Of a DNA stretch of 64,000 bases, positions 18,291 to 45,675 are shown one piece after another; position 1 is the first letter of the stretch, and the number at the start of each line of letters is the position of its first letter. Origin of the DNA: Barnesiella intestinihominis YIT 11860 (GTDB taxonomy: Bacteria > Bacteroidota > Bacteroidia > Bacteroidales > Barnesiellaceae); contig NZ_JH815206.1 of the NCBI RefSeq assembly GCF_000296465.1, positions 296,200 through 360,199 on the forward strand, read 5' to 3'. The notes beneath the pieces were generated by a model. The model saw only the letters and a list, made by a program, of their open reading frames with translations, had not been told where the DNA came from and did not search any database. A program made the translations under genes and the position numbers.

Positions 18291-18929
18291 ATGAATCACA
18301 AAGAAATATATGATTTAAATATTTTATCGGAATCATTGATCTCGAATGACGAAACTTTTCAACAAGCATGTGACGATGATTTGATGCGGAGATTAGCTTT
18401 GGACGATGAAAGATCTTTTGATTCTATTTTTAAATTGTATTATAAGGACCTTCTTCTTTATGCGGGGAGCTATCTTCGCGAAAGACAAGTTTGTGAGGAT
18501 ATAGTTCAATCCTTATTCATGCATTTATGGTATGACCGGAAAACACTGTCTGTGGGGAGATCGTTAAAATCTTATCTGTTAATTTCCGTTCGGAATCGTT
18601 GTTTCGATTACATGAGGCATCAAAATGTCAGGAACGATTATTTTGATTACGTAAATGAAAACTCGGTATTATCGAGCTCCAATACCGAGGAATATATTTT
18701 ATATTCCGAATTACAAGATCATATAAAAAAAGCGATAAATAAATTGCCGAAAGCTCAAAAAGAGGTTTTCGTATTGAGCCGGATAAAAGGTATAAAATAT
18801 AAAGAAATCGCTAAAAAACTGAATGTCTCGGAACGTACGGTTGAAGTTCGTATAAGCCAGTCATTAAAAACATTGCGGACTCTTTTGAAAGATTTTTTCT
18901 TATTGATTGCTGTTTTATTTGTACGATAG
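18291..18929 (+). CDS. ECF-type RNA polymerase sigma factor (locus 1)
   Basis: Sigma-70 family ECF factor of 212 residues, the usual first gene of an ECF/anti-ECF glycan locus. Region 2 spans about 40-110 (SFDSIFKLYYKDLLLYAGSY, then EDIVQSLFMHLWYD). Region 4 spans about 145-205 (LPKAQKEVFVLSRIKGIKYK, then EIAKKLNVSERTVEVRISQSL, a helix-turn-helix). There is an acidic N-terminal extension of about 35 residues. Its partner anti-sigma gene follows after 69 bases. By analogy with Bacteroides it would activate the SusC/SusD genes downstream when the SusC STN domain signals through FecR. Confidence 0.93.
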   Translation: MNHKEIYDLNILSESLISNDETFQQACDDDLMRRLALDDERSFDSIFKLYYKDLLLYAGSYLRERQVCEDIVQSLFMHLWYDRKTLSVGRSLKSYLLISVRNRCFDYMRHQNVRNDYFDYVNENSVLSSSNTEEYILYSELQDHIKKAINKLPKAQKEVFVLSRIKGIKYKEIAKKLNVSERTVEVRISQSLKTLRTLLKDFFLLIAVLFVR

Positions 18930-20224: not shown

Positions 20225-23200
20225 ATGAACTTTATTTCTATTTTGAAAGGTAGGAAGCAACAATTTCTGCCTAAGAATCTTCTAATTATAAAAATTTGCT
20301 CGCTTTTGTTGGTTTGCTGTAATGTTATGGCTTTCGGTGCAGATAATCATACACGCGATCCATTAGTAAGCGTCAATATGAAAAATGCTACTCTCGAAAG
20401 CGTTTTGAATTATATAGAGGAAACAACCAGTTACTCTTTTTTGTACAATAAACAGCAAGTAGATGTCGGTCAGAGGATCGATATATCGCAGAAAGATCAA
20501 CCTATCTCCGTAATTCTGGATATTTTGTTTAAAGGGAGCGATATTACGTATTCTATAAACGGAAAGCAGATAGTTCTCAGTAAAAGCCGGTCAAATGCTT
20601 CTTCGAAGGTCGATAAGCGCCTGCTTACGGGTACGGTTATCGATAGTAAGGGAGAAGCCGTTATCGGAGCTAATGTGATTGTAAAAGGCGAGAAATCGGG
20701 AAAGGCGACCGATATAGAAGGAAATTTTTCCATCGAAGTCCCCGACAAAGGTGTTCTGTTGGTGTCTTATATTGGGTTTCAACCGCAGGAGGTGAGTTAT
20801 GGCACGAAAAAAAATGTGACTGTGGTTTTACAGGAAAATAATACATCTCTTGACGAAGTCGTTGTCGTGGGTTTCGGTAAACAGAAAAAAGAGAGTGTGA
20901 TCGGTGCTATTCAATCGGTAAAAGCCAGTGAACTTCGTGTGCCCACTACCAACCTTACTAACACGTTTGCCGGTCGTATTGCCGGCGTAATATCGGTTCA
21001 GAAAACCGGGGAGCCGGGAGCCGACGGTGCGAATTTTTGGATACGAGGAGTCAGTACATTCGCTTCGGGTTCAGCTCAGAATGCCTTGATATTAATTGAT
21101 GGAACAGAATCCAGCACGTATGATTTGAATGCCTTAGCACCGGAAACAATCGAGAGTTTTTCTGTCTTGAAAGATGCTACGGCAACGGCTCTTTATGGTT
21201 CGCGTGGGGCGAACGGCGTTCTTTTGGTTACGACCAAGTCGGGTCGAATGAATCAAAAACCTACGATAAATGTTCGTGTCGAAGGGCGAATGTCCATGCC
21301 TACACAGATTCCTGAACTGGCCGATGGTGTCACTTATATGAAAATGTTTAATGAAGCGATCGAAGCTCGTACTCCCGGAGCGAATCCTCAGTTTACCGAC
21401 GATCAGATTCAAGGAACTATTGAGAACCGCAATCCTTACCTTTATCCAAATAACGATTGGTATGATATTATTTTTAAAGATGTCACGTTTAATCAGGCTG
21501 CGAACATAAACGTTTCCGGTGGGTCGAAAAACATGGATTATTTTGTCAGTGCGACATTTAATAACGATATGGGGTTGGTACAAGAAGCAAAAGAAAATCC
21601 GTTAAAGAATAATATTCAGAATTTGCGGTATTCGTTTCAAGCCAATGTAAATACTCATATTTCGTCCACTACCAAAATGGGGGTGAAATTAAATGTTCAA
21701 ATACAAGATTACAAGGGCCCTTATAATAGTATCAATACGATCTTTAATCGGGTAATGTGGGCACAGCCTACCTATTTCCCGGTGAAATTTCCTCAAATCG
21801 AGGGTACGAATTATATCGCATGGGGTAATAAATCGGGTGGCGCCCAACTCAACCGTTATCCGAATCCGTATGCCGAACTGGCTTCCGGTATAAAGGAAAT
21901 GTTCCGCATTACGACGATGGCGACGTTTAATATAGACCAAGATTTGAAGTTTATTACTAAGGGGTTGTCTGTTAAAGGTTTATTCTCTATGAAGCATTTC
22001 TCTTCTACGACTTTGAATCGTACTTATACTCCCTATTATTTCGAAATCGACCCGAACACGATTGTTACCGATCCTATTACGGGAAATCAATCTTGGAAGT
22101 TGAGAAATGTCAATAACGATGGAACCGATGCGTTTTCTTTTACCAAAGCCTATTCGGGTGATAGGTTATTCAATTTTAATGTTTCGTTAGATTATCAAAG
22201 AAAGTTTGCCGATCTTCATGATATTTCAGCGCAACTGATTTATTTGCAACGAGGGGTTTATAGTAGTAATCCGGCCAATTATAACTCTTCTCTCGGAGAG
22301 TTGAATCAAGGTATGGCCGGAAGATTTACGTATGACTTTGATAAACGTTATTTCTTTGAGTTTAATTTCGGATATAATGGGAGTGACAATTTCGCCAAAG
22401 GTAAGCGGTTCGGGTTCTTCCCTTCCTATGCACTCGGTTATATTATTTCGAACGAGGACTTTTTTGCCCCTTTGAATAAGACGATTAGTCTGCTGAAATT
22501 AAGAGGATCGTATGGAACGGTTGGAAATTCTAATTCTTCTGTTCGTTTTCCCGGATATACCAATGTCAATATGAATGGAGCCGGATATGCTTTCGGTGAG
22601 GATTTCAAAGCTACCGAGGCCGGAGCTATCATAACGACATATGGTAATGAAAATGCAACTTGGGAGGTTGCTAAAAAAGCAAATGTGGGTATAGAATTGG
22701 GTTTGTTCGATCAAAAATTCTTGTTGATTGCCGATTACTTTCATGAAAATAGGGACAAAATTTTAATGACTCGGCAAACTATTTCGCCTACGATAGGAAT
22801 TGGTGATGCTAATCCGGTAGCCAATGTGGGAAAAGTGACGAATAGAGGAGTTGATATGTCTTTGGAATATAATCATGCGTTTTCCAAAGATATTGTTCTT
22901 TCGGTTAAAGGGAACTTTACTTATGCTGTAAATAAAATATTGGAGAAAGATGAACCCCATTATCCGTTTAGTTATCAATACGAGAGAGGCGGAGCCTTGA
23001 ATCGTGTCGGTCCGGCTTATATAGCGCTGGGGTTATTTAAAGATGAGGAAGATATTAAAAATAGTCCCAGTCAAGAGGCTATCATGCCTAATATAAAACC
23101 GGGGGATATAAAATATCAAGATTTGAATGAAGATGGGGTGGTTAACGAATATGACCGTACCTATATCGGAAATCCTTATATCCCACAGATTGTATATGGT

Positions 23201-23644
23201 TTCGGAGCCTCTTTCCAATATAAGAATTGGGACTTCTCTGTATTCTTCCAGGGTGCGGGAAAAGTCTCTATTTATTTGGACGATATACATCCGTTCGATA
23301 TCTATCATAAGAATGTTTTGAAATTTGTGGCAGATGACTATTGGTCGGCATCTAATCCCAATCCTAATGCGAAGTATCCGAGATTGGCGCACAATGTAGA
23401 TAATACGAATACATACCAGAAGTCGACGTTCTGGTTGAGAGATGGTTCTTTCCTGAGATTGAAAAATGCCGAGATAGGATATTCCTACAAATTTATGAGA
23501 GCCTATATTGCCGGTAGTAATTTATTGACATTTACGGGCTTTAAGTATTGGGATCCTGAGATCGGAGGCGGATCTAACAGTGGCAATGGATTGGTATATC
23601 CTTTACAGAGAGTTTTCAATCTGGGTGTTCAATTTAATTTCTAA
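20225..23644 (+). CDS. SusC/RagA TonB-dependent outer-membrane transporter with STN domain (locus 1)
   Basis: Outer-membrane glycan importer of 1139 residues. A signal peptide of about 38 residues is followed by an STN domain (about 50-122, NMKNATLESVLNYIEETTSY), a carboxypeptidase-D-regulatory-like domain (about 132-205, LTGTVIDSKGEAVIGANVIV), the TonB-box-like segment LDEVVVVGFGKQKKES, a plug with ATALYGSRGANGVLLVTTKSG, and a beta barrel ending in VQFNF. STN transporters signal through FecR/ECF pairs, matching the genes upstream. The SusD gene follows after 7 bases. The sugar specificity must come from context: nearby GH20, GH109 and GH110 point to host glycans. Confidence 0.96.
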   Translation: MNFISILKGRKQQFLPKNLLIIKICSLLLVCCNVMAFGADNHTRDPLVSVNMKNATLESVLNYIEETTSYSFLYNKQQVDVGQRIDISQKDQPISVILDILFKGSDITYSINGKQIVLSKSRSNASSKVDKRLLTGTVIDSKGEAVIGANVIVKGEKSGKATDIEGNFSIEVPDKGVLLVSYIGFQPQEVSYGTKKNVTVVLQENNTSLDEVVVVGFGKQKKESVIGAIQSVKASELRVPTTNLTNTFAGRIAGVISVQKTGEPGADGANFWIRGVSTFASGSAQNALILIDGTESSTYDLNALAPETIESFSVLKDATATALYGSRGANGVLLVTTKSGRMNQKPTINVRVEGRMSMPTQIPELADGVTYMKMFNEAIEARTPGANPQFTDDQIQGTIENRNPYLYPNNDWYDIIFKDVTFNQAANINVSGGSKNMDYFVSATFNNDMGLVQEAKENPLKNNIQNLRYSFQANVNTHISSTTKMGVKLNVQIQDYKGPYNSINTIFNRVMWAQPTYFPVKFPQIEGTNYIAWGNKSGGAQLNRYPNPYAELASGIKEMFRITTMATFNIDQDLKFITKGLSVKGLFSMKHFSSTTLNRTYTPYYFEIDPNTIVTDPITGNQSWKLRNVNNDGTDAFSFTKAYSGDRLFNFNVSLDYQRKFADLHDISAQLIYLQRGVYSSNPANYNSSLGELNQGMAGRFTYDFDKRYFFEFNFGYNGSDNFAKGKRFGFFPSYALGYIISNEDFFAPLNKTISLLKLRGSYGTVGNSNSSVRFPGYTNVNMNGAGYAFGEDFKATEAGAIITTYGNENATWEVAKKANVGIELGLFDQKFLLIADYFHENRDKILMTRQTISPTIGIGDANPVANVGKVTNRGVDMSLEYNHAFSKDIVLSVKGNFTYAVNKILEKDEPHYPFSYQYERGGALNRVGPAYIALGLFKDEEDIKNSPSQEAIMPNIKPGDIKYQDLNEDGVVNEYDRTYIGNPYIPQIVYGFGASFQYKNWDFSVFFQGAGKVSIYLDDIHPFDIYHKNVLKFVADDYWSASNPNPNAKYPRLAHNVDNTNTYQKSTFWLRDGSFLRLKNAEIGYSYKFMRAYIAGSNLLTFTGFKYWDPEIGGGSNSGNGLVYPLQRVFNLGVQFNF

Positions 23645-23651: not shown

Positions 23652-25595
23652 ATGAAAGCAATTAAAAATATATTCTTAGTATTAGGGATACTCGTTACTG
23701 TTTCCGGTTGTGATTATCTGGATTCTGAACCTGAGAAGAAAGGAACTTTGGAAGAGGCTTTTGCCAGCGTAAATTCGGCAAGGAATTTTTTGTACGCTTG
23801 TTATTCTTTTATGCCCGAGTCGAGTGATCATAACGGGGAGCCGCAATTTAATGGAGCCAGTGATGAAGTGTGCATAACTTCTCAGTGGGCTACGACATGG
23901 CATTACTCCAAAGTCGCGAATATTGGGTCTCAAACGGCAGCCGATCCCATATATAATTATTGGTCTTATTTCAAAAGTCCTACACAATCGAGCCGTTGTA
24001 AAGCGTACAATCTTTATGGCGCTATTCGTCAATGCTATACATTTTTGAATCGAGTAGAAAGTGTACCGGGAATATCCGCAGCAGAAATAACCGATTTTTC
24101 ATCGCAAGCCAAATTTCTGATAGCTTATTATCATTATCTGTTGTTAAGATTGTATGGTCCGATTGTGTTGATAGACAGGGAAATTCCATTGGATGCTACC
24201 GGTGAGTTGGCCTTCCCGAAACGTCGTCCTTACGATGAGTGTGTAGAATGGATCGCCGATCGTTTAGACGAAGTGGCTCCTTTACTGCCGCCTATCCAAA
24301 CTTCCGATAAATATGGAGCTCCCACGCGGGCTGCGGCAAAAGGAATAAAATCGCGTATGTTATTGTATGCCGCAAGTCCTTTGTTTAATGGGAATAGTGA
24401 ATATTACAGCGACTTTAAGAATAAAGATGGAGAACAATTAATCAGTTTGCAGTATGATAAGGAAAAATGGAAAAAAGCCTTAGATGCAGCCGAGGACGCT
24501 ATCAATGAAGCGCATGCAGCTGGACATGATTTGTATACCCATTTGCAGGCTCCGGTTGGAATAAGCGATGCTGAAAAAGGATATTTTAATCATCGTTGGT
24601 CGTTGGTGACTATGCCGAGTGCGGGAAATACAGATATTATTTGGGCTTACACAGGATCCCGAATGAATATTCAACAAATGATAGCACCTCGCGGATTGTC
24701 ACAAGGATCTACCACTGTTCCTTATGGGGGCTTGGCTCCTTCAATGCAAATGGTGGAAACCTATTTAACAAAGAATGGATTGCCCATTGATAAAGACCCG
24801 TCTTTCCAATATGATAGAAGATTTGGAGTAACGACCGATCCTGAGACGGGAGAAAAGACCGTGAGATTACATTTGAATCGGGAACCTCGTTTCTATGCCG
24901 ATATTGCATACGACCGGGCAACCAATTTCGAATTGGACGGCAGAGATGGAATAAAAGGAGGAAAAGGTTATACGTTGTATTTGAGAATGGGCGAAATTAA
25001 TCCTGAAACCAATCAGACGAACGGGAATGATCCCTTGAAAGATAATATCACTCCTAATGGTTATTTGTGGAAAAAATATTTACATCCGAATACGAGTTTC
25101 GCTAATAATCAGGTGGCAGTGAGGGCTACGGCTTTTCCGTTGGTTCGTTTGACAGAGCTCTATCTCAATTATGTGGAGGCTTATTATGAATATTATGGAA
25201 GACTTGATGGGCAGGCTCTCATTTATTTGAATGATATTCGTTCCCATGCCGGTATCCCCAATGTCGAGACTTCTTGGCAGGGAATTGCAGGGAAAGACTA
25301 TCGCGAGATTATACGACAAGAAAGAACGATTGAACTCATGTATGAAGGCCATCGATTCTTCGATGCTCGTCGTTGGAAAATTGCGCATCTGACTTTCAAT
25401 AAGGTTCAGAAAAGATGGAATTGTTTTCCGGCAGGATTTACGACTCAATCTCCGCAGTCAGCAGAAAATTATCTGACATTGCGAAACAGTAATGAGCCGA
25501 CGAAAACTTTTAATGTGCCACAACACTATCTCTATCCGCTGGATTCCAGAGATATAAATATCAATCCGAATTTAGTCCAAAATCCGGGGTGGTAG
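23652..25595 (+). CDS. SusD/RagB surface glycan-binding lipoprotein (locus 1)
   Basis: Outer-membrane lipoprotein that caps the SusC barrel and binds the glycan. The chosen ATG gives MKAIKNIFLVLGILVTVSGC with a lipobox cysteine at residue 20; an upstream frame-open start inside susC is rejected. The 647 residues are long for the family (often 500-600). TPR-like helices near YYHYLLLRLYGPIVL, the ATRAAAKGIKSRMLLYAASPLF block and the C-terminal REIIRQERTIELMYEGHRFFDARRW are classic SusD features. It ends NLVQNPGW like its relatives. Placed immediately after susC and before a hairpin. Confidence 0.95.
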   Translation: MKAIKNIFLVLGILVTVSGCDYLDSEPEKKGTLEEAFASVNSARNFLYACYSFMPESSDHNGEPQFNGASDEVCITSQWATTWHYSKVANIGSQTAADPIYNYWSYFKSPTQSSRCKAYNLYGAIRQCYTFLNRVESVPGISAAEITDFSSQAKFLIAYYHYLLLRLYGPIVLIDREIPLDATGELAFPKRRPYDECVEWIADRLDEVAPLLPPIQTSDKYGAPTRAAAKGIKSRMLLYAASPLFNGNSEYYSDFKNKDGEQLISLQYDKEKWKKALDAAEDAINEAHAAGHDLYTHLQAPVGISDAEKGYFNHRWSLVTMPSAGNTDIIWAYTGSRMNIQQMIAPRGLSQGSTTVPYGGLAPSMQMVETYLTKNGLPIDKDPSFQYDRRFGVTTDPETGEKTVRLHLNREPRFYADIAYDRATNFELDGRDGIKGGKGYTLYLRMGEINPETNQTNGNDPLKDNITPNGYLWKKYLHPNTSFANNQVAVRATAFPLVRLTELYLNYVEAYYEYYGRLDGQALIYLNDIRSHAGIPNVETSWQGIAGKDYREIIRQERTIELMYEGHRFFDARRWKIAHLTFNKVQKRWNCFPAGFTTQSPQSAENYLTLRNSNEPTKTFNVPQHYLYPLDSRDININPNLVQNPGW

Positions 25596-25711: not shown

Positions 25712-26884
25712 ATGCTCAGGAAACTAATAAGAGTTTGGATTGTAGGAATAGTATTCCCGCTCTATGCCATAGCCGGGCAACCTTCGGTAAAAATTACCCA
25801 CGGTCCCTATTTACAAAACTTGTCGGAGAACGAAGTGACAGTCGTGTGGACAACCGATAAGCCTTGTAAATCGTGGGTGGAATTCAGCAAAAAGGAAGAC
25901 GGTAAGAACTTCTACTCCCAACTGCCGCGAAAAGCCTATGCCTCACAAGACGGGTTGTGTTGTGTCGACACATTGCATCGCGTAACGATTACGGGGCTTG
26001 AAAAAAACACGACCTATTTTTACCGAGTATTGTCACAAGAGGTAAAAGAGTTGCTGCCCTATCGTCCTGTTTTGGGTAACATCGTTTCTACCGATATCTG
26101 GGAAAAACCGTTGACTTTTACAACACTCGATGGCAGACAGGAAACATTGTCGATAGTTATGATAAACGATATACATGGGAAGAACGATTTGCAGAAAAAA
26201 TTGTTGGAAATGGCTCCACCGCAAAATGTCGATATGGTAGTGTTTTGTGGGGATATGTGTAACTATATTAACAAGCAAAGTGATATTTTCACCGGTTTTT
26301 TAGATACATCGGTCGGCCTGTTCGCATCTAGAAAACCATTTGTATATGTAAGGGGTAATCATGAAACTCGTGGAGCATATGCCCGTAATTTCTTCCGATA
26401 CCTTGCCGGTCCCGAAGGGAAGTTCTATTACGCTTTCACCTATGGCCCCATTCGGTTCATCGTGTTAGATAGCGGTGAAGATAAACCCGATACAGATGTG
26501 GAATATTCGGGTTTGGTAGATTTTGATAATTATATACTTGAACAAAAGGAGTGGTTGGCCCGTGAATTGGAAAGTCCGGAGTTTAGAGCTGCCTCTTTTC
26601 GGGTAGTCTTGTCTCATATTCCTTTTGGGAAAGGCAGTTGGTATGGCTCTGAACGACTACGCAAACAGTTGCTCCCCCTATTGGAGAGTGTTCGTATCGA
26701 TTTGATGTTAAGTGGGCATAATCACGCATTCGGATTTATGGATAAGGGGAAAGTTACAGCTTTCCCTATAATAGTGAACTCCAATAACTCTGTGTTGACA
26801 ATGTTTGGTTCGAAAGATCTGCTGAAAGTTCAAGTTAAGCAAATTGATGGAAAAGTATTATTAGAGAAAGAATTCAGTAAATAA
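25712..26884 (+). CDS. exported purple-acid-phosphatase-like metallophosphoesterase
   Basis: Predicted periplasmic or surface phosphoesterase of 390 residues with a cleavable signal peptide (MLRKLIRVWIVGIVFPLYAIAG). Residues about 28-115 form a fibronectin-III-like domain (ITHGPYLQNLSENEVTVVWTT) as in purple acid phosphatases. The calcineurin-like domain has an intact metal centre: MINDIHGK (DxH), VVFCGDMCNY (GD), VRGNHETRG (GNHE), VVLSHIPF and LMLSGHNHAFG (GHxH). It is co-directional with GH20 (11-base gap). The substrate is unknown; a phosphorylated glycan or lipid is possible. Confidence 0.87.
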   Translation: MLRKLIRVWIVGIVFPLYAIAGQPSVKITHGPYLQNLSENEVTVVWTTDKPCKSWVEFSKKEDGKNFYSQLPRKAYASQDGLCCVDTLHRVTITGLEKNTTYFYRVLSQEVKELLPYRPVLGNIVSTDIWEKPLTFTTLDGRQETLSIVMINDIHGKNDLQKKLLEMAPPQNVDMVVFCGDMCNYINKQSDIFTGFLDTSVGLFASRKPFVYVRGNHETRGAYARNFFRYLAGPEGKFYYAFTYGPIRFIVLDSGEDKPDTDVEYSGLVDFDNYILEQKEWLARELESPEFRAASFRVVLSHIPFGKGSWYGSERLRKQLLPLLESVRIDLMLSGHNHAFGFMDKGKVTAFPIIVNSNNSVLTMFGSKDLLKVQVKQIDGKVLLEKEFSK

Positions 26885-26895: not shown

Positions 26896-28563
26896 ATGCA
26901 AAATATACGAACAATACGATATTGTTTTATCTTGTTTTTATCCGTTTTAGTCTCTTGTAAAGGCCAAACCGATAAATTAAATGATAATTGCCCCCTTATA
27001 CCCAAACCATTATCGGTAGACATGCAACCGGGCGAATTTACGTTTGGAGACAGTGTGGTAATTGAATTGAAAACAGATGATGAAGAAATAAAAAGAGCGG
27101 CAAACTTTCTTAAAACCTTTGTGGAACAGACAGGAAGTTGCAAAGCTCAGATAGGAACCGGTGAAGAAGCCCGGAACAAAATCGTTTTTACCGTTTGCGA
27201 TACGATCGCTCATGATGAGGCTTATAGACTCGATGTGTCCCCTCGTACGGTAACTATCGCCTCGAAGGGTGGTGCTGGTGCTTTTTATGCAGTGCAAACA
27301 TTGCGTCAATTGCTTCCGGCCGAATGCGAGAAAAAAATATGTGACGAAAATGTGATACTGCAAGTGCCCTGCGTGAATATCTACGATGAACCTCGTTTCA
27401 AACATCGAGGGTTTATGCTTGATGTGGCACGTCATTATTTCCCGTTGGATTTTATCAAGAAAAACATCGATATAATGACATTGTATAAATTGAATGTATT
27501 GCATCTGCATTTAACCGATGATCAGGGGTGGCGCATCGAGATAAAATCGCATCCGCGGCTTACTTCTGTGGGGGCTTGGCGCAAACAAAGTATTGCCGGA
27601 CATAAAAATGATGTACCTCGTAAATACGATGGAAAACCTCATGGCGGATATTATACCCAAGATGAATTGCGGGAAATTGTCGAATATGCCCACGAGAGAT
27701 TTATTGAGGTTATTCCTGAAATCGAAATGCCGGGACATACTCAATCGATTTTGGCCGCATATCCTCAGTTGGCCTGTTTCCATAAAAACTACGAAGTCTC
27801 GTGCGATTGGGGCGTTCATAAAGAAGTCCTATGTACAAAGGAAGGCAGTTTTAAACTTCTGGAAGATGTGCTATCCGAAGTTTTTGAAATTTTTCCTTCG
27901 AAATATATACATATAGGAGGAGATGAATGTCCGAAAGACCGTTGGTCCGAATGTCCGGTTTGTCAACGAAATATAAAACGATTGGGATTGAAAGATGAGC
28001 ATGAACTCCAAAGCTATTTTATAAAACGAATGGAGGAGTTTGTCAATGCACATGACCGGCAAATTATTGGCTGGGACGAAATTTTAGAAGGTGGCATCGC
28101 GCCTAATGCCGTTGTCATGTCTTGGAGGGGAGAAGCAGGAGGTATAAAAGCGGCAAAAATGAACCATTCTGTTATCATGACTCCTCGGGATTTTTGCTAT
28201 CTCGATTATTATCAATCGGAAGACCGGGATAATGAGCCTTTGGCTATTTATGGTTACCTACCGTTAGATTCGGTTTATTCCTATAATCCTACCGAAAAAT
28301 TAACATCGGAACAGGGTCGATATATTTTAGGCATTCAGGGAAATCTTTGGACGGAATACATTGCTACTCCCGAGCATGCCGAATATATGGCTTATCCGAG
28401 GGCCATAGCGTTGGCCGAAGTTGGGTGGAGTCGGCAAGAACAAAAAGATTTTACAGATTTTATCTACCGTTTGACTATTCAATCGAAGAGGCTTGATTCA
28501 TTGAATGTTAATTATGCGAAACACTTTCTTTTTTCAGTAAAAAATAAAAATGATAAACTATGA
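26896..28563 (+). CDS. GH20 beta-N-acetylhexosaminidase
   Basis: Removes terminal beta-GlcNAc or beta-GalNAc from host glycans. The 555-residue chain carries a lipoprotein-type signal (LFLSVLVSCKGQ, cysteine near residue 17-18). GH20 domain 2 lies at about 35-150. The catalytic (beta/alpha)8 barrel starts at about 155 (FKHRGFMLDVARHYFP, then LHLHLTDDQGWRIEI). The catalytic Asp-Glu pair is in KYIHIGGDECP near residue 340. SWRGEAGG and GIQGNLWTEYIATPEHAEYM shape the active site. The stop overlaps the next start (ATGA), so translation is coupled with the T9SS propeller protein. Confidence 0.95.
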   Translation: MQNIRTIRYCFILFLSVLVSCKGQTDKLNDNCPLIPKPLSVDMQPGEFTFGDSVVIELKTDDEEIKRAANFLKTFVEQTGSCKAQIGTGEEARNKIVFTVCDTIAHDEAYRLDVSPRTVTIASKGGAGAFYAVQTLRQLLPAECEKKICDENVILQVPCVNIYDEPRFKHRGFMLDVARHYFPLDFIKKNIDIMTLYKLNVLHLHLTDDQGWRIEIKSHPRLTSVGAWRKQSIAGHKNDVPRKYDGKPHGGYYTQDELREIVEYAHERFIEVIPEIEMPGHTQSILAAYPQLACFHKNYEVSCDWGVHKEVLCTKEGSFKLLEDVLSEVFEIFPSKYIHIGGDECPKDRWSECPVCQRNIKRLGLKDEHELQSYFIKRMEEFVNAHDRQIIGWDEILEGGIAPNAVVMSWRGEAGGIKAAKMNHSVIMTPRDFCYLDYYQSEDRDNEPLAIYGYLPLDSVYSYNPTEKLTSEQGRYILGIQGNLWTEYIATPEHAEYMAYPRAIALAEVGWSRQEQKDFTDFIYRLTIQSKRLDSLNVNYAKHFLFSVKNKNDKL

Positions 28564-31500
28564 AAACAAATGCTATTTTTAGTAAGAAACAGCTTTTTGG
28601 GGTCTGCTGTGCATTATTGTTGTCCCCTATGGCTGTATTTGGACAACTTATTGTTGGAAAAAGTTTGGGAGCCGATCATACGGCCGATGAACAAAAGGCT
28701 TTGGCCGTAACGAAGAATGGGGATATGTATATATCGATCAATGCCAATTCTTTTCAGATAATGAAAGATGACGGAACTTTCGATGAAATTAAAAATCCCT
28801 ATCAAGAGTCTACTACCCGTGCTGGTATTTTGACGAAAATATCGGCTGATGGAAAACTCCTTTGGAGCAATATGGTGTGTGTGCAGGAGTCTGCCAATAA
28901 TAGTCAGGTGACATCGGTTTGTGAAGTCGGTGATTATCTCTATGTAGTCGGAGGTGTCAGAACCAATGTAAAGGGGGAACACCCGGTATCCGTGTTTGGA
29001 ATTCCATTGGTCTCACAGGGGGAAATGGATTATTATATCGCTAAACTGAATGCTGCTACCGGTGAGGCTGTGTGGGCAAAGACATTCGGTGGCGTTCGTA
29101 ATTGGGAGATGTTCAATTCGGTGGTTGCCGATGAGGCCGGGAACTTGTATGCCGTGGCTACTTTTGGCAATGTATCGAGTGCACCTTTGGAAATGCCTCT
29201 CAAAGACGGTTCTTCTACTTCTTTGGCCGTTACAAACAATTGGGGCGAAGATTATCTACTTGTGAAGTTCAATAAAGACGGTGAAATTTTATGGGCGACC
29301 AGTATCGGTTCTAAATTTCGTGAAAATGGAACTCCTGATGTAACCGTAGGAGAAGATGGGAATCCTGTCATTTGTGGTGTTTTCAATGCTGCGAATGGAA
29401 ATCTAATGAATGAGTCGGAGGAAAAACGAGAGTTTTATATTGGAGAACAGAAATATCTGCTTTATCCCGAGCAGTCCAAAGAGTCGGCATTGGTAAAACT
29501 CAATTCGACCGATGGTTCTGTGATGTGGTCCCGTTATTTTACCGGTACTGGAAATCAAGAAGTGTTGAAGGTACAGGCCGTTTCGGGCTCGAATGCTGTG
29601 GCCGTAACGGGGAAAGCGAATAATCAGATAATCGTGGAAGGATCTGCCGGATTGTCTACCGAAACCGTCACGCATGTATCGGGAGCAGATCATTTATTTG
29701 TTATCTCTTTTGACGTTGATGGAAAGCTCCTGTGGAGCAAATCGGCTTCGGGAGATACATCGAGCGAAGGTAAAGAGATTTCGAGTGATGATTTGGGGAA
29801 TATTTATGTAAGCGGATATTTCAACGGTTCGTTAAATTGGGGTGACAATATCGTTCTTCAAAAGACCGGGTCTAATGAAAAAGAGGGCTTCTTCGCTAAA
29901 TTAAATGGTTCCGGTAAATGTCTGTATGCCGAAACGGTCAAAGGAACAGGTGCGGAGAGTATCAATCTTATAGCGGTAAACGGAGATAAGCTGGCTGTTG
30001 CCGGGGATAGAACGACAGATGTCACGTTGCCTTATGGCGACTCTGAAACTGGCGTCGCTCGATATACTGTCGGAGATCGTAATTATAAATGGTTTGCGGC
30101 ATCCTATACGATGAAACCTTCTGTTTCGGGAATCTCGACGTTGAACGGAAAGAGATTCGTTCCTTTCTCGTATCAAATTGTTCCGGCTTTCTTCGAAATG
30201 CCGGCAGTGTTTGAATACTCTTTGGCTGGCAATTTACCCTCTGGCTGGATATTGGATCCTGCTACGGGTATTATTTCGGGAAAAGCTACCGAAGAAGCGA
30301 GCGGTTCATTCAGTGTGATGATTTCTAATGCCACAGACGGTGAAAGTGTAGAGAAAACCTATACCTATTCTATTGTACCTAAACCCTGCGATATCTTGTC
30401 TATACAACCCGAGAGTCTACCTTCACGGGCTGTGACCGGAGCTTTCTATCAACAATTCACGTTGGAAAATGGAGAGGGAAAAATTGTTTGGACTGCCGAA
30501 AATTTGCCCAAAGGTCTGTCTTTGGATCCTGATAAAGGATTATTGAACGGTATTTTACAACAAACAGGGGAACTTTCGTTCACGATTAAAGCGAGAGAAG
30601 AGAGTGGTTGTGAGACTTCCCGAAGCTATACGATTAATGCCGAAGAATTTAATTATTCTTTGGCTCCGAATCTGAAATGGATTAATCAAATTTATGGAAG
30701 TGAAGCGTTTGACCATGCCAAAGTGAATTCTATCGATAAAGATGGAAATGTTTGGGTAGCAGCAAGTTATTTTTCGGCAACTTTCTCCGATGAAGTTTCA
30801 TTCCCGAACATTGGGAATACCGATGCATTGGTCGCTAAATATAATGGAATCGATGGTAGTTTCATGTGGGCTCGTACGATCGGGGGCTCTCCTGTATCCG
30901 GCAGAAATGAGCAAGGACAGGCGATTGTAACAGATGTAGTGACAGGCGATGGAGTATTTACCGGAATAATTACGCCCGATGCTCGTATAGGAACCCTAAA
31001 TGAAACAGATAGCTTTCCTACAAATGGGGGACGGGATATAGGAGTTATTCGTTTTGATAAAGATGGTAACAAAATTTGGCATAAAGTATTTGGCTCGGCC
31101 AAAGATTGGGAAGCCGGAATCAATACGACTTTTGATAAGAAAGGAAATATTTATGTGATCGGTTATACCAACGATGGAGATATAGTGATACCTATGGCCG
31201 ATGGCTCTTCCGAAACATTAGCGGGAACCTCGGTAGATGTGGTGATTATTAAACTGAATGGAGATGGAGAAGGCCTTTGGGCGAAGCGTTTAGGTACGGT
31301 AAATAAAGGTGAGGAAATATATGGCCTTGTGACCGATGACGCTTGCAATGTATATGTATCGGGTATGGTGAATAACGGTACAGTACCTTTTGGTAATGGT
31401 AAGGTGGTGACAGCTACCGGAATTACTTCGTTTATTGCCAAGTATGACGAGGCCGGAGTTTGCCAATGGGTAACTTCGTTGGGAAGCAATGGTTCGCTTA

Positions 31501-32870
31501 TCAATGGACGGGGAACATCTCTTGTTCGAGATAAAAATGGAAATTTGTATTTTGCTGCAATTTGTAAAGGGTCTTCTTCCATATCGGGAACAACGGAAAC
31601 GATTGAGGCCGATGCTTCGAAAACCGATGGAGCAATTATTAAATTTAATTCCGATGGACAATATGTATGGCATCGCATGTTTGCATCGGTTGCCGATGAC
31701 GGAGTGACCTCTCTTGCGGTTGATGAAAGTAATAATGTCTATGCCGTGGGATATTATGAGGCAGAGTTGCCTGTATATGAGAGTATAAAATTACAGCGCA
31801 ATGGAAATAATCGAACGGCCTTTGTCGCCAAATATTCCGATGAAGGAGAGTATTTATATGCTTTCTCGACAGGAGCTATTATTACCGATGCCGTGAAACC
31901 GACTGGTTTGGCCATTTCGATAGATAAGACTACGAACGACATTATATTGACCGGGCCTACTTACGGAACGATATATCCCTATGGTGTTAGCGGTAGTTCC
32001 AATGCTTTTGGAGGCGGACGTTTTATGTTGGCACGTTATAGCCAAGATGCTGCTTTGTTCGGCATTTTTCCTCAGGGAATAAAAGGGGAGAGCTATTCGG
32101 CTCAATTAAATATTTCTGGTTTCCAAAAGCCCTTACAAGTTGCTTATAGTCTTAAAGTTGGAGATAACCTCCCCGATGGATTGTCTTTGGATACGAATAC
32201 GGGAGAAATTAGTGGAGTATTGAATGAAGCTGGAATATTTAAATTTACAGTCTTGGCTACCGACGGTTTTGTCAATGCTAGTAAAGAGTTCAGCATTTCT
32301 GTTACCGGAGCAGATTGTCAGATGACAGTAGAGGCGATTATTTCGGAAGATGCAGAAAATGGAAAACCTTTTTCTGCGAGAATATATGCCGATAATGCTA
32401 CCGGAGCAGTAACATGGTCTATTGAAGAAGGTAGTTCTCTCCCTTATGGCTTGTCTATAAGCTCGTTGGAAGATGGTGTCGGATTAATTAGTGGAACTCC
32501 TAATGCTCCGGCGAAGGAATATTCGTTTACGATTGTCGCCGAGGACGAAGCGGGCTGTCGTGTCACTCAATTGGTATATCTCAATGTTACAGGCGAAAGC
32601 GGGGTAGAAACCCTTGTTTCCGAAGGCTTTGTCGTATATCCCAATCCGGTAACCGATGGAATGCTTAAAGTTTCTTTGAAAGACCTTGTTTCGGGAAATT
32701 ATGTGATAGAAATTGCAGACCTATCAGGAAAACAAGTCTATAAAGAGGAAGTTAGGGTAGAAGAAAACATGGTAAAAAGTATTTCTGTAAATAATATGCC
32801 TTCTCAATGGTATGTAGTTACCGTTCGGGGAATGGGTGTATCCTATTCGCAGAGATTTATGGTTCAATAA
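28560..32870 (+). CDS. giant T9SS-secreted beta-propeller/Ig-like protein (locus 1)
   Basis: Secreted protein of 1436 residues with a signal peptide (cut near MAVFGQ). Two blocks of SBBP-like propeller repeats, with signatures such as DEAGNLYAVATFG, SDDLGNIYVSGYFNG and DKKGNIYVIGYTN, fill about 30-530 and 700-1150. They alternate with putative-Ig/cadherin-like domains (LPSGWILDPATGIISGKATE, LPDGLSLDTNTGEISGVLNE, LPYGLSISSLEDGVGLISGT). The C-terminal 80 residues (FVVYPNPVTDGMLKV to QRFMVQ) are a type A T9SS sorting domain, so it should be displayed on the cell surface. No enzymatic motif is seen. A similar smaller protein sits in locus 2. A binding role is inference. Confidence 0.85.
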   Translation: MKTNAIFSKKQLFGVCCALLLSPMAVFGQLIVGKSLGADHTADEQKALAVTKNGDMYISINANSFQIMKDDGTFDEIKNPYQESTTRAGILTKISADGKLLWSNMVCVQESANNSQVTSVCEVGDYLYVVGGVRTNVKGEHPVSVFGIPLVSQGEMDYYIAKLNAATGEAVWAKTFGGVRNWEMFNSVVADEAGNLYAVATFGNVSSAPLEMPLKDGSSTSLAVTNNWGEDYLLVKFNKDGEILWATSIGSKFRENGTPDVTVGEDGNPVICGVFNAANGNLMNESEEKREFYIGEQKYLLYPEQSKESALVKLNSTDGSVMWSRYFTGTGNQEVLKVQAVSGSNAVAVTGKANNQIIVEGSAGLSTETVTHVSGADHLFVISFDVDGKLLWSKSASGDTSSEGKEISSDDLGNIYVSGYFNGSLNWGDNIVLQKTGSNEKEGFFAKLNGSGKCLYAETVKGTGAESINLIAVNGDKLAVAGDRTTDVTLPYGDSETGVARYTVGDRNYKWFAASYTMKPSVSGISTLNGKRFVPFSYQIVPAFFEMPAVFEYSLAGNLPSGWILDPATGIISGKATEEASGSFSVMISNATDGESVEKTYTYSIVPKPCDILSIQPESLPSRAVTGAFYQQFTLENGEGKIVWTAENLPKGLSLDPDKGLLNGILQQTGELSFTIKAREESGCETSRSYTINAEEFNYSLAPNLKWINQIYGSEAFDHAKVNSIDKDGNVWVAASYFSATFSDEVSFPNIGNTDALVAKYNGIDGSFMWARTIGGSPVSGRNEQGQAIVTDVVTGDGVFTGIITPDARIGTLNETDSFPTNGGRDIGVIRFDKDGNKIWHKVFGSAKDWEAGINTTFDKKGNIYVIGYTNDGDIVIPMADGSSETLAGTSVDVVIIKLNGDGEGLWAKRLGTVNKGEEIYGLVTDDACNVYVSGMVNNGTVPFGNGKVVTATGITSFIAKYDEAGVCQWVTSLGSNGSLINGRGTSLVRDKNGNLYFAAICKGSSSISGTTETIEADASKTDGAIIKFNSDGQYVWHRMFASVADDGVTSLAVDESNNVYAVGYYEAELPVYESIKLQRNGNNRTAFVAKYSDEGEYLYAFSTGAIITDAVKPTGLAISIDKTTNDIILTGPTYGTIYPYGVSGSSNAFGGGRFMLARYSQDAALFGIFPQGIKGESYSAQLNISGFQKPLQVAYSLKVGDNLPDGLSLDTNTGEISGVLNEAGIFKFTVLATDGFVNASKEFSISVTGADCQMTVEAIISEDAENGKPFSARIYADNATGAVTWSIEEGSSLPYGLSISSLEDGVGLISGTPNAPAKEYSFTIVAEDEAGCRVTQLVYLNVTGESGVETLVSEGFVVYPNPVTDGMLKVSLKDLVSGNYVIEIADLSGKQVYKEEVRVEENMVKSISVNNMPSQWYVVTVRGMGVSYSQRFMVQ

Positions 32871-32875: not shown

Positions 32876-32916
32876 CTATGGGGCTATCCAATTGATCTGG
32901 ATAGCCCCATAGTTTT
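32876..32916 (+). terminator. strong hairpin after the propeller gene (locus 1)
   Basis: Perfect 15-bp stem CTATGGGGCTATCCA/TGGATAGCCCCATAG with a 7-base loop, then TTTTG. The short T-run suggests a partial terminator inside the locus. Confidence 0.6.
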
Positions 32917-32939: not shown

Positions 32940-34547
32940 ATGAAGAATCTTATCTATTTCGTATGTCTGGCTTTTGCCGGTATTTTCTTGTTGGGTTGTG
33001 AAAAAAACGATATGCCCGAACCCGAAAAACCAAGAGAGGAAGAACCTGCCGATTCCACGGATATCGTCGATCCCGAAGAGCCCGATACTATTGTAGAGCA
33101 GAAGGACGATCCTGAAAATGGAATTATCTTGGATATGCCGGGTATTACGCTTAAAGGTTGGGTGCATTGCAATCGGGTAGGAATGCCGGGGGTTGTAGTG
33201 ACCGATGGAACTAACGTCACTGTTACCGATGAGAAAGGTATATATAGAATGAAACGAAATACGACGGCTTCTCATGTATATATATCTTCACCGAGCGGTT
33301 ATACCGTATGCGTGAAAAATAGCGTACCCCAGTTTTATGCCGAAATCAATCAGCGAACAGATATTGTCCATAAAGATTTTGAGCTTGTTCGTCTTGAAAA
33401 AGATGATACGAAACATACATTTATTGCAATCGGTGATCCACAGTTATATCGTGATTTTGAGTTGAGTTATTTGAAAGAAGCTGTAAATGACCTTAACAGC
33501 TGGGTAACGCAGAGCCGTAAAGGAGAATGTGTACATTATATTGTGTTGGGAGATTTGGTGTTTGACAAACCAGAGTATCATGAATCGAGTAAAGAGATTT
33601 TTTCGATGTTGAATGCTCCTGTGTATAATGTTATCGGCAATCATGATCATGTGTTCGACAAAAATGAACTTGCTGTGAAGTCCAATGATTTGAAGGCCGA
33701 TACGGTATATAAACGACATTACGGGCCTACTTATTATTCATATAATCGGGGTAAGGTCCATTACGTAGTCCTTGATGATGTGGAATATTGGGGCGGATCG
33801 GGGCCTAAGTATGTCGATGCCGTTTCCGATGAACAAATTGCTTGGTTGCAAAAAGATTTGATGTATGTTGATAAAGATAAGGCGATTGTCCTTTGTTTAC
33901 ATGCACCTACTAAGCGCAGAACCGAGACTCGGTCTTTCGGCAACAGAGAACAGTTGTATGCTCTTCTCCGTGGATATGCCGATGTTCAGATTCTTAGCGG
34001 TCATACGCATTGGAACTCTGTTGTGACAGATGATGGTAGTGGTATGACAGAACACATTGTAGCGGCAATGTGCGGTAATTGGTGGCAACCCGAACTGATT
34101 TGTAGTGAGGGTACACCTATCGGGTATAAAATATTTGATGTGGACGGAACCTCATTTAAATGGAAATATAAATGTGTGGGACAACCCGAACAATACCAGA
34201 TGAGAGTATATCCTTTGGGAGAAAGAATCAACATATTACGTCCGAAAAATGTCGTTCTGAATGTTTGGGATTGGGATCCTTCGTGGAAAGTCGAATATTC
34301 CGAAGATAACGGACAAAACTATCGTTCGATGTTCCGTAGTCTGAATATGTATGATATTACTGCATACAATGCTTTCGGGGCGAAGGGAGATAATACTTTC
34401 CCTGTCGGGCGTACTTGGATACAAGCCTCTGAATCTGATCATATGTTCTATTGTAGGCCTTCTATTCCGTATAATCAACTTAAAATAAGGGTGACTTCCC
34501 GGTTTGGGGATATGTTTTCGACGACCGTAAATATTCAAAATCTTTGA
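32940..34547 (+). CDS. calcineurin-like phosphoesterase lipoprotein with N- and C-terminal beta domains
   Basis: Surface or periplasmic lipoprotein of 535 residues (lipobox LLGC at residue 20), followed by an acidic, proline-rich linker. Residues about 68-140 form the N-terminal MetallophosN-like beta domain (LKGWVHCNRVGMPGVVVTDG). The central phosphoesterase has AIGDPQLY (DxQ variant of DxH), IVLGDLVFD, VIGNHDHVF, LCLHAPTK and ILSGHTHWN, so the metal site is intact. Residues about 400-535 are the MetallophosC-like domain. It is the second phosphoesterase in this locus and is of a different family from the purple-acid-phosphatase-like one. Substrate unknown. Confidence 0.88.
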   Translation: MKNLIYFVCLAFAGIFLLGCEKNDMPEPEKPREEEPADSTDIVDPEEPDTIVEQKDDPENGIILDMPGITLKGWVHCNRVGMPGVVVTDGTNVTVTDEKGIYRMKRNTTASHVYISSPSGYTVCVKNSVPQFYAEINQRTDIVHKDFELVRLEKDDTKHTFIAIGDPQLYRDFELSYLKEAVNDLNSWVTQSRKGECVHYIVLGDLVFDKPEYHESSKEIFSMLNAPVYNVIGNHDHVFDKNELAVKSNDLKADTVYKRHYGPTYYSYNRGKVHYVVLDDVEYWGGSGPKYVDAVSDEQIAWLQKDLMYVDKDKAIVLCLHAPTKRRTETRSFGNREQLYALLRGYADVQILSGHTHWNSVVTDDGSGMTEHIVAAMCGNWWQPELICSEGTPIGYKIFDVDGTSFKWKYKCVGQPEQYQMRVYPLGERINILRPKNVVLNVWDWDPSWKVEYSEDNGQNYRSMFRSLNMYDITAYNAFGAKGDNTFPVGRTWIQASESDHMFYCRPSIPYNQLKIRVTSRFGDMFSTTVNIQNL

Positions 34548-34565: not shown

Positions 34566-35930
34566 ATGAATCTGATTCTAAGAATTATTATAACAGGAGC
34601 ATTGTTGCTTTTGTTTGCTTGCAAGTCTGTTTATAAAGCCGACCCGTTTCCCGAACCGGAAAGAGAATCGGGACAAACCGATGTCCTTGCATTAAGAGCT
34701 GAACCTTTGGATACAGTACGGGTTGCTTTTATAGGGGTAGGTGCTCGGGGCATGGCAGCCGTGAAACGTTTTATGAATATAGAAGGTGTGAGGGTGGTTG
34801 CGTTGTGCGATGTAGATTCTTTCAAGGTTGCCAAAGCGCAGAGGATTCTGGCTGCGAAGGGACGAGGACCGGCCGTGGAATATTGTGGCCCCGATAGTTG
34901 GAAGAAGGTTTGTGAACGAAGCGATGTAGATTTGATTTATAATTGTACCCATTGGCAGTTGCATACTCCTATTGCGGTCTATGCTATGGAGCAGGGGAAA
35001 CATGTCGCGGTGGAAGTTCCGGCTGCCCTTACGGTTGATGAGTGTTGGCAATTGGTGAATACCGCCGAAAAAACTCGGAAACATTGTATGATGCTGGAAA
35101 ACTGTTGCTACGATTTTTTTGAGTTGGCTACTTTGAATATGGCTCAACAGGGCGTTTTCGGAGAAATTGTTCATGGAGAAGGGGCTTATATTCACGATTT
35201 AAGAGAATATAATTTTGACACTGCATCGGTATCGGGATATTGGGATATGTGGAGATTGAAATATAATACGGATCATACGGGGAATCCATATCCGACGCAT
35301 GGCTTAGGCCCGATTTGTCAAATAATGAACATTCATCGGGGAGATAAAATGAATTATTTGGTGTCGATGTCGAGTGACCAGTTCGGATTGACGGAATATT
35401 CTCGGAGTCGTTTGGGGGAAGAACATGCGTTTGCTTCTAAAAAATATGATTTAGGAGATATGAACACTACTCTTATTAAGACTGAAAAAGGGAAAACGAT
35501 TTTGATTCAACACGATGTGACAAGTCCTCGACCTTATGACCGGCATCATGTAATCGGCGGAACAAAGGGTTTTGCACAGAAATATCCGGTGGAAGGGATT
35601 GCCTTAGAACCGAATGCACATTGTTTCTTACCGGAAGAGAAATTGGATTCTCTCTTGAAGGCTTATGAACATCAGTTTGTGAAAGAAATTGGAAATTTAG
35701 CTCGAAAAGTAGGTGGGCATGGAGGTATGGACTTTATTATGGACTATCGCTTGATTTATTGTTTAAGGAATGGATTGCCTTTGGATCAAGATGTTTATGA
35801 TGCTGCCGAATGGTCTTGCTTGGTCGAATTGACTGAATATTCAGTAAGAAATGGATCTGTTCCTGTACGTATTCCCGATTTCACACGAGGAGCATGGGAG
35901 AAATTAAAAAGTTTGGAGTTTGCAAAATAG
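34566..35930 (+). CDS. GH109 alpha-N-acetylgalactosaminidase (Gfo/Idh/MocA fold)
   Basis: NAD-dependent glycosidase that removes terminal alpha-GalNAc, including the blood-group A determinant. It is a predicted lipoprotein (LLFAC lipobox), 454 residues. The Rossmann motif is FIGVGARGMAAV. Blocks that I recognise from the characterised GH109 enzyme of Elizabethkingia are LENCCY, GEIVHGEGAYIHDLR, NPYPTHGLGPI, GHGGMDF and DVYDAAEWS, and the chain closes with IPDFTRGAWE. These separate it from ordinary Gfo/Idh dehydrogenases. The GH110 gene follows directly. The cofactor is presumed tightly bound NAD, as in the family. Confidence 0.9.
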   Translation: MNLILRIIITGALLLLFACKSVYKADPFPEPERESGQTDVLALRAEPLDTVRVAFIGVGARGMAAVKRFMNIEGVRVVALCDVDSFKVAKAQRILAAKGRGPAVEYCGPDSWKKVCERSDVDLIYNCTHWQLHTPIAVYAMEQGKHVAVEVPAALTVDECWQLVNTAEKTRKHCMMLENCCYDFFELATLNMAQQGVFGEIVHGEGAYIHDLREYNFDTASVSGYWDMWRLKYNTDHTGNPYPTHGLGPICQIMNIHRGDKMNYLVSMSSDQFGLTEYSRSRLGEEHAFASKKYDLGDMNTTLIKTEKGKTILIQHDVTSPRPYDRHHVIGGTKGFAQKYPVEGIALEPNAHCFLPEEKLDSLLKAYEHQFVKEIGNLARKVGGHGGMDFIMDYRLIYCLRNGLPLDQDVYDAAEWSCLVELTEYSVRNGSVPVRIPDFTRGAWEKLKSLEFAK

Positions 35931-35970
35931 TTATAAATTTGCAACATTGAAATATTTAACAAGATTAAGA

Positions 35971-37788
35971 ATGGGAACGAAATTTTCGACACGCGTATGG
36001 GTAAGTGTAGTCGGCATAGCATCGATTTTTTTGGGCAGTAAAGGATATGCGGATACTGTGATTTCGGTAGCCGACTTTGGGTTGAAACCCGATACGAGGG
36101 AGAATGCCGTAGCATATGTTCAAAAAGCGATAGAGGCTTGTAGGGGAAAAGAGCCGGTAACCCTTGTCTTTCCCGAAGGACGTTATGATTTTTGGCCTCA
36201 ATATGCTCATGAGAAAAATTATTATGAGACCAATACCTACGATGTTTTTCCGAAGCGATTGGCAATGCTTTTCGAGGGGCTTCACAATATCACTGTCGAC
36301 GGGAACGGCTCGCAGTTCGTCATGCACGATCGAATACAACCGATAACCGTTGAGAATTGCGATGGCGTTACCTTGAAAAATTTCTCTATCGATTGGGATA
36401 TACCGCTTACGGCTCAGGCTCGTGTGACAAAGGTGGGTAGCGATTTTTTCGAGATCGAAATCAATGTCCTCGAATCTCCCTATATCATTGAAGACGGCAA
36501 GCTGGTATTCGTGGGTGAAGGCTGGAAAAGTGCATTAGGCAGTATGATAGAATTTGAGTCTGATACGCATTTCGTGGTTCCCGGTACGGGTGATTTGGTG
36601 CTGGGGAGGAATTGGAGAGACTATACGGCCGTTTCACCTCGGTATGGTATTGTGCGGTTGAGTCGGAAGGGAGGATTCGAACGATACCCGGCCGAGGGTA
36701 ACTGGTTGGTGCTGAGGCATAGCACGAGAGACCATGCCGGAATTTTTATCTGTGGCAGCCACGATGTGCGGTTGTCCGATGTGCAGGTATATCATACCGC
36801 CGGCTTGGGTATCTTGGCACAATATTCTTCTGATATTGCGTTCAAAAAAGTGAGTGTAGAGCCCAATGCGGCGAAGGGACGCATATTGAGCGGTCACGAC
36901 GACGGTTTCCATTTGATGGGGTGTAAAGGTAAAATTACGGTCGACAGTTGTCGTTGGGCTGGTTTGATGGACGATCCCATAAACGTACATGGAACCTGTG
37001 TCCGGGTGGTGAAAGTCCTTTCTTCCGATAAGGTTGTCTGCCGGTTTATGCACGACATGAGCAAAGGTATGGAGTGGGGATTTCCGGGAGATAAAGTCGG
37101 TATGATCGAAAACAACACCATGCGCACGGTTGCTACTGCAAATATACGCTCGTTCAAGGCGATAGACGAGTATGAGTTCGAATTGGAATTGACATCGGAT
37201 TTGCCGGAAGAAATCGGGGTAGGCGCTGCATTGGAGAATCTCACGTGGACTCCCGATGTCGATATTCGCAACTCGTTTTTCGGTTCTTGCCGGGCGCGGG
37301 GATTACTGGTTTCCACACCGGGAAAAGTAGTGATTGAAAACAATGTGTTCGAGTCGAGCGGGTCGGCTATATTGATTGCGGGCGATGCGAATTATTGGTA
37401 CGAATCGGGTGCGGTAAAAGATGTGCTTATTAAAGGAAACGACTTCCGTTATCCCTGTATGTCTTCCATGTATCAGTTTTGTGAAGCCATCATATCTATC
37501 GAGCCGGAAATTCCCCAGCCCGATACGAAGTATCCGTTCCATAGCAATATCAGGATTGAGAACAATACATTCAATCCGTTCGACTATCCTATTTTGTATG
37601 CAAAAAGCGTAGACGGTATTTCGTTTACAGGGAATGTGATTCAAAGGAATACAACCTATAAACCGTTCCACAAACGAAAGGCCGCCGTAACATTGGTAAA
37701 ATGCCGCCGTGCGAAAATCAAGGATAATAAGATTATAGGCGATGTGCTGGGTGCTCCCGGTGGGAAACTGTCTATTGTGAAAGAATAA
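35971..37788 (+). CDS. GH110 alpha-1,3-galactosidase
   Basis: Exo-enzyme that cleaves terminal alpha-1,3-galactose, the blood-group B determinant and, in some members, linear alpha-Gal. The ATG at 35971 gives 605 residues and a plausible signal peptide (VWVSVVGIASIFLGSKGYA); an upstream TTG inside the GH109 gene is less likely. The right-handed beta-helix repeats and the blocks RYDFWPQYAHEKNYYETNTY, IDWDIPLTAQA, LRHSTRDHAGIF, GHDDGFHLMGCKG, GLMDDPINVHGT and GSCRARGLLVSTPG match Bacteroides GH110 enzymes along the whole length. It is the last gene of locus 1 before a strong terminator. Confidence 0.94.
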   Translation: MGTKFSTRVWVSVVGIASIFLGSKGYADTVISVADFGLKPDTRENAVAYVQKAIEACRGKEPVTLVFPEGRYDFWPQYAHEKNYYETNTYDVFPKRLAMLFEGLHNITVDGNGSQFVMHDRIQPITVENCDGVTLKNFSIDWDIPLTAQARVTKVGSDFFEIEINVLESPYIIEDGKLVFVGEGWKSALGSMIEFESDTHFVVPGTGDLVLGRNWRDYTAVSPRYGIVRLSRKGGFERYPAEGNWLVLRHSTRDHAGIFICGSHDVRLSDVQVYHTAGLGILAQYSSDIAFKKVSVEPNAAKGRILSGHDDGFHLMGCKGKITVDSCRWAGLMDDPINVHGTCVRVVKVLSSDKVVCRFMHDMSKGMEWGFPGDKVGMIENNTMRTVATANIRSFKAIDEYEFELELTSDLPEEIGVGAALENLTWTPDVDIRNSFFGSCRARGLLVSTPGKVVIENNVFESSGSAILIAGDANYWYESGAVKDVLIKGNDFRYPCMSSMYQFCEAIISIEPEIPQPDTKYPFHSNIRIENNTFNPFDYPILYAKSVDGISFTGNVIQRNTTYKPFHKRKAAVTLVKCRRAKIKDNKIIGDVLGAPGGKLSIVKE

Positions 37789-37802
37789 TGGATAAGACGT
37801 TG

Positions 37803-37832
37803 GGCGGAATGTTAATTCCGCCTTTCTTTTTT
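37803..37832 (+). terminator. terminator of locus 1
   Basis: Perfect stem GGCGGAAT/ATTCCGCC with a 4-base loop and a T-rich tail, 15 bases after the GH110 stop. Confidence 0.9.
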
Positions 37833-38694: not shown

Positions 38695-38702
38695 TACATT
38701 TG
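38695..38702 (+). promoter_or_regulatory. -7 box of the locus 2 ECF sigma gene
   Basis: TACATTTG. It overlaps the first in-frame TTG of the sigma gene, so the true start codon should lie downstream. Confidence 0.5.
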
Positions 38703-38717
38703 CATATTATATTATTA

Positions 38718-39320: not shown

Positions 39321-39375
39321 CTATAAACGATTAGACGTGCGAGCCGATTTGCTTTTATACTAGGTAAAGGAACAA

Positions 39376-43958: not shown

Positions 43959-43982
43959 TTATCGATATAAATGTCAGAATAT

Positions 43983-45644: not shown

Positions 45645-45675
45645 GGATAGCTTACACAATTAATGTTATCTATAT

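Follow-up and report, generated by a model that had tools for sequence, protein, structure and literature searches.

The window, that is, the whole 64,000-nucleotide stretch of Barnesiella intestinihominis DNA analysed here, carries a run of genes that opens with an ECF sigma factor and its FecR-type partner and closes with a GH109 and a GH110 glycoside hydrolase (Table 1). The sequence-only reading of this region had placed the two hydrolases next to each other, at the end of an ECF-controlled locus that also has a GH20; all of these elements were recovered, together with SusC, SusD and a terminator-like hairpin that follows the pair, and the two hydrolase genes, both on the forward strand, are separated by a 40-bp gap when GH110 starts at ATG 35971. 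This likelier start yields both that gap and a signal peptide (MGTKFSTRVW...GYA); the ORF finder had chosen TTG 35920, which lies inside the end of the GH109 gene. For SusD, the start was moved from GTG 23580 to ATG 23652, which results in a lipoprotein signal. A tandem SusC/SusD pair, a linked regulator and CAZymes are thus all present, as in Sus-type PULs, and neither a fucosidase nor a beta-galactosidase occurs in the locus. The SBBP/He_PIG protein probably resides at the cell surface.

Table 1. Features of the GH109-GH110 locus (positions in the window)
Feature	Position	Strand	Evidence
ECF sigma factor	18291..18929	+	Pfam Sigma70_r2, r4_2
FecR-type anti-sigma factor	18999..20036	+	Pfam FecR, FecR_C
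SusC-like TonB-dependent transporter with STN domain (FecR/ECF coupling)	20225..23644	+	Pfam Plug, STN, CarbopepD_reg_2
SusD-like surface glycan-binding lipoprotein	23652..25595	+	Pfam SusD_RagB, SusD-like_3; N-terminus
Purple-acid-phosphatase-like metallophosphoesterase	25712..26884	+	Pfam Metallophos, Pur_ac_phosph_N
GH20 beta-N-acetylhexosaminidase, lipoprotein-like N-terminus	26896..28563	+	Pfam Glyco_hydro_20, 414 bits
1436-aa SBBP beta-propeller/He_PIG protein, T9SS sorting tail	28560..32870	+	Pfam He_PIG, Por_Secre_tail; NCBIfam T9SS tail
Strong hairpin separating the last three genes from the SBBP gene	32876..32912	.	Fold -29.5 kcal/mol, z-score -4.9
Calcineurin-like metallophosphoesterase (MetallophosN/C), lipoprotein-like	32940..34547	+	Pfam PF16371, PF00149, PF16370
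GH109 alpha-N-acetylgalactosaminidase-family protein	34566..35930	+	Pfam PF21252, PF01408; structures 6t2b, 2ixa; motifs; lipoprotein-like signal (LLFAC)
GH110 alpha-1,3-galactosidase-family protein, signal peptide	35971..37788	+	Pfam PF23763, PF23764, PF13229; structures 8pvs, 9i4f, 9beh, 8yk3, 7jw4; catalytic D328, D351, D352
Intrinsic-terminator-like hairpin and T-run directly 3' of GH110	37802..37823	+	

From SusC to GH110 the intergenic gaps range from -4 to 116 bp, all genes share one strand, and GH110 is the last gene ahead of the terminator-like hairpin. Orientation and spacing make a single operon likely, and to this extent the earlier claim of one operon stands; it has to be qualified by the strong hairpin upstream of the last three genes, which may split or attenuate the transcript and leave these genes expressed at a different level. 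Promoter-like sites in the locus were no more numerous than in shuffled sequences, and predicted promoters were therefore dropped as a means of judging an operon split. At the equivalent place (L067 1600-1680) the sister species also carries a hairpin, whose sequence is unrelated to that of the window; this suggests that an RNA structure is kept here, be it an attenuator, a terminator or a processing site. A separate observation is that two different metallophosphoesterases occur in one glycan locus and are kept in the sister species, suggesting a phosphorylated substrate or product.

The assignment of the two hydrolases to GH109 and GH110 is borne out by Pfam models and solved structures, far above the cut-offs. 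The family-model check was run with Pfam models, and the significant matches of both proteins rule out the no-match outcome; NCBIfam gave no equivalog above cut-off for either. In the GH109 protein, GH109_C (PF21252) scores 178.8 bits (E 9e-53, cut-off 27) and the Rossmann domain GFO_IDH_MocA (PF01408) 51.8 bits, above its cut-off. Most of its length aligns with the Akkermansia GH109 structure 6t2b (357 bits, E 2e-105) and with the alpha-N-acetylgalactosaminidase 2ixa (253 bits). The motifs GVGARG (residue 57), YPTHG (242) and GGHGG (383) are kept, and the protein thus has both the dinucleotide-binding GxGxxG and the catalytic GGHGG loop that are given as marks of the family (Teze 2020, as cited in PMC10154618). 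The genome encodes three GH109s, this copy included, and the closest branch to it in the GH109 tree is the genus's chromosomal GH109 (SH-aLRT 98), from which it probably arose by duplication. Among characterised relatives, BT4243-GH109 has blood group A as its preferred substrate and cleaves Tn and Forssman GalNAc as well (PMC11992087), and the Akkermansia GH109s act on alpha-GalNAc substrates, Tn excepted (PMC11790493).

The GH110 protein is the only one in the genome. A Beta_helix domain (PF13229) and two GLAA-B beta-barrels (PF23763, PF23764) all score above their Pfam cut-offs, and every solved GH110 matches it (8pvs, 9i4f, 9beh, 8yk3 and 7jw4), with 346 bits (E 5e-102) for Akkermansia 8pvs and 325 bits for the PpaGal structure 9i4f. 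Its D328, D351 and D352 correspond to the catalytic D321, D344 and D345 of PdGH110B, for which catalytic and subsite residues have been described (PMC7939477). Conservation extends to the -1 subsite and to the +1 Arg, which is intact, with N355, W493, E495, R458 and R460 equivalent to PdGH110B N348, W486, E488, R451 and R453; the position of PdGH110B E480 is occupied by Ala in the window protein and by Cys in PpaGal.

The surroundings of the active site tell the window GH110 apart from the PpaGal-like enzymes. In a GH110 tree from which the solved enzymes and several other characterised GH110s are absent, it falls into a separate 66-member clade (SH-aLRT 96) that includes neither a B. fragilis GH110 nor that of another Bacteroidales family (genome G121), which is PpaGal-like with 770 bits to 9i4f. 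Of 64 relatives with at least 45% identity to the window protein, 63 have Glu at position 103 and nearly all have D-D-G at 327-329, whereas distant GH110s mostly have Ile or Val at 103 and A-D-A or A-D-F at 327-329. The E103, T106, D327 and G329 of the clade correspond to I, H, A and A in PpaGal-like enzymes, and the motifs ISNHDQ and QADAT read ETNTYD and HDDGF in the window protein. The position of PpaGal W260, aromatic in PpaGal-like enzymes, mostly holds a small residue in the clade (Ser in the window), and that of Q373 holds Met380, with Met in 23 of the 64 relatives. PpaGal mutants at W260 and Q373 had altered activity, which was lowered by changing Q373 to N (PMC12002104). Family membership does not by itself imply B-antigen activity, since PdGH110B cuts linear alpha-1,3-Gal and not the B trisaccharide (PMC7939477). 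The altered residues leave the specificity of the window enzyme uncertain, and such residues need not exclude activity on B. The clade is drawn mostly from free-living bacteria, including many environmental Bacteroidota, and extends to Verrucomicrobia, Planctomycetes and Hydrogenedentes. We know of no characterised member. The clade is also a candidate source of alpha-1,3-galactosidases.

The linkage of the two families was followed through 80 loci with the nearest GH110s from a genome collection. A GH109 lies within about 10 kb of the GH110 in eight of them (L092, L132 and six from Flavobacterium), against a rough chance expectation of about 0.5 to 2.5 per 80 for one to five GH109s in a roughly 4-Mb genome, a comparison in which the six Flavobacterium loci do not count as independent cases. 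Directly upstream of GH110, as in the window, it is found in two of the 80, from an uncultured Bacteroides (L092) and Carboxylicivirga marina (L132). Within an order-level sample of Bacteroidales, only one other genome of about 31 with GH110 has the pair adjacent, namely G121, where SusC/SusD and an M60 peptidase follow. On the GH109 tree the distribution of the pairing requires four label changes, three of them forced by starred branches, and on the GH110 tree five, including the loss in the sister species described below; both trees come from quick searches, run without bootstrap, and some of their branches are long. The pairing has probably been assembled several times independently, and its recurrence favours functional coupling on mucin-type glycans. 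M60 mucin peptidases also occur near GH110 in Bacteroides (L087, L088 and L091), in L132 and in G121, and SusC relatives with 40-45% identity sit beside M60 in L197, L200, L211 and L212; a GH109 is present in L212 as well. SusC/SusD was considered as a decisive substrate marker and rejected: broader relatives of the pair occupy loci with varied enzymes, which means that the substrate is not defined by the transporter. In Flavobacterium and Carboxylicivirga, the GH109 near GH110 comes together with a DUF3472/DUF5077 protein (L137 12217-13536, L129 18686-20002, L132 3831-5183).

The family comparison covered nine genomes, of which only one other, a sister species (G299), has an orthologous GH110, with 79% identity. 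The whole locus is syntenic there (SusC 91%, SusD 93%, GH20 79%, SBBP 83% and MetallophosN/C 82%), except that GH109 is gone: its last 29 codons are left between the MetallophosN/C stop and GH110, with 76% identity. A chromosomal GH109 is still present. Read from these remains, the arrangement is a deletion that followed a stage at which both species shared the gene. The sister species can therefore dispense with GH109 at this locus, the remainder of which is intact.

The linkage is not unique to the window, and this kind of system is already known. The B. thetaiotaomicron PUL BT4240-50 likewise combines ECF/anti-sigma-linked SusC/SusD with a GH109, but has an M60 O-glycopeptidase, a GH2 and a GalNAc kinase and is without GH110 (PMC11992087). 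The window instead has GH110, GH20, two metallophosphoesterases and the SBBP/T9SS protein, and a profile search for M60 (PF13402) found no match anywhere in the genome. Akkermansia muciniphila supplies the closest solved relatives of both window proteins (6t2b and 8pvs), and its GH109 and GH110 enzymes are active on A and B structures (PMC11790493); compared with these, motifs close to the active site are altered in the window GH110, and the two window genes are neighbours within a Sus-type locus. PpaGal (9i4f, PMC12002104) has its catalytic residues and fold family in common with the window GH110 at about 35% identity, the latter being without the W260 aromatic and the Q373 Gln. The two loci with GH109 directly upstream, L092 and L132, carry a GH110 of the same clade, and the stretches examined are without the window's phosphoesterases or SBBP protein; in L132, M60, DUF3472 and GH2 lie beside the pair, and L092 has an ECF gene in opposite orientation. 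Literature naming GH109, GH110 and PULs together concerned a different system only, and an earlier in-silico listing, for instance in PULDB, is possible.

Overall, we consider it fairly probable that the locus is an ECF/FecR-controlled Sus-type PUL for host mucin-type glycans, either O-glycans or related glycolipid chains, in which GH109 and GH110 remove alternative caps. SusC/SusD would import fragments of glycans or glycopeptides; in the periplasm, a location suggested by the signal peptides and the BT4243 precedent, GH109 would remove terminal alpha-GalNAc and GH110 terminal alpha-1,3-Gal, the two alternative alpha-1,3 caps found on one type of host chain (A/B, Forssman, alpha-Gal). Beta-linked HexNAc would next be taken by GH20, and fucosidases encoded elsewhere would finish the chain; one GH95 and two GH29 are encoded outside the locus, on which fucose removal would have to rely. 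Substrate class and co-expression are what we infer here. The mucin-type reading is favoured by the family matches, catalytic residues, gene spacing, recurrent linkage and genomic GH95/GH29, by M60 near related GH110s and beside SusC relatives, and by the preference of BT4243, from an ECF-linked mucin PUL, for blood group A (PMC11992087). Against it speak the mostly free-living GH110 clade, the loss of GH109 in the sister species, the lack of M60 in the genome and of fucosidase and beta-galactosidase in the locus, and the metallophosphoesterases and SBBP protein, for which it does not account.

Cleavage of A and B antigens by the pair is plausible. It is also possible, if doubtful, that the targets are host glycans other than ABO, as in animals without human-type ABO, with linear Gal-alpha-1,3-Gal(NAc) as the substrate of GH110 and alpha-GalNAc of the Tn, Forssman or another type as that of GH109. 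The cleavage by PdGH110B of linear alpha-1,3-Gal and not of the B trisaccharide, the clade residues E103, T106, D327 and G329 with the small residue at the W260 site and Met380 at the Q373 site, and the cleavage of Tn and Forssman by BT4243-GH109 all point that way; however, the -1 subsite and the +1 Arg are intact, and the nearest solved enzymes by sequence, 8pvs and 9i4f, are B-active, though distant at roughly 35% identity. Less probable is a non-host glycan, such as a bacterial, algal or dietary polysaccharide with alpha-Gal or alpha-GalNAc, possibly phosphorylated, which would make the phosphoesterases central. The spread of the clade over environmental Bacteroidota and into other phyla, the two metallophosphoesterases in the same gene run and the GH110s known from carrageenan loci (PMC7939477) fit such a substrate, while the presence of GH20 and GH109, the T9SS-tailed sialidase-family gene of the neighbouring locus and the M60 mucinases beside related GH110s argue against it. 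Finally, a duplicated GH109 might simply have landed in the locus and be dispensable; its sister relationship to the chromosomal copy, the deletion in G299 and the rarity of the adjacent pair in the order sample agree with this, yet the linkage apparently arose separately in the Bacteroides, Carboxylicivirga, Flavobacterium and G121 lineages and the window GH109 is intact with its catalytic motifs kept, and we regard such an incidental neighbourhood as improbable.

The points of most value are that the pair recurs and has apparently been assembled more than once, that a sister species shows a clean deletion of GH109, and that the GH110 clade is uncharacterised. Host ABO type is reported to be linked with structural variation in gut bacteria, genes for GalNAc use included (PMC10808065). 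A locus with both cap-removing families, and a sister species in which only the GalNAc-side gene was deleted, offer a natural way to ask if the preference for a cap goes with the glycans of the host. More speculatively, and with rather low confidence, the clade may represent a functionally distinct subfamily, widespread outside the gut, whose repeated linkage to GH109, independently assembled in several Bacteroidota, would mark a two-enzyme unit for glycans with an alternating GalNAc/Gal alpha-1,3 cap, the GalNAc half being gained or lost by species as the caps they meet change.

The window contains a second ECF/FecR/SusC/SusD locus (38700-56092), with two endonuclease/exonuclease/phosphatase-family proteins, a GDSL hydrolase, a Gfo/Idh/MocA protein, a second SBBP/He_PIG protein and the T9SS-tailed sialidase-family (BNR) protein. 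The SBBP/He_PIG proteins of the two neighbouring loci (28560-32870 and 48110-50371) are about 25% identical. The sister species is without the sialidase-family, ADP-ribosylglycohydrolase and TPR genes at the place of window positions 52646-61519, and there the aminotransferase adjoins the Gfo/Idh/MocA gene (L066 3831-4004).
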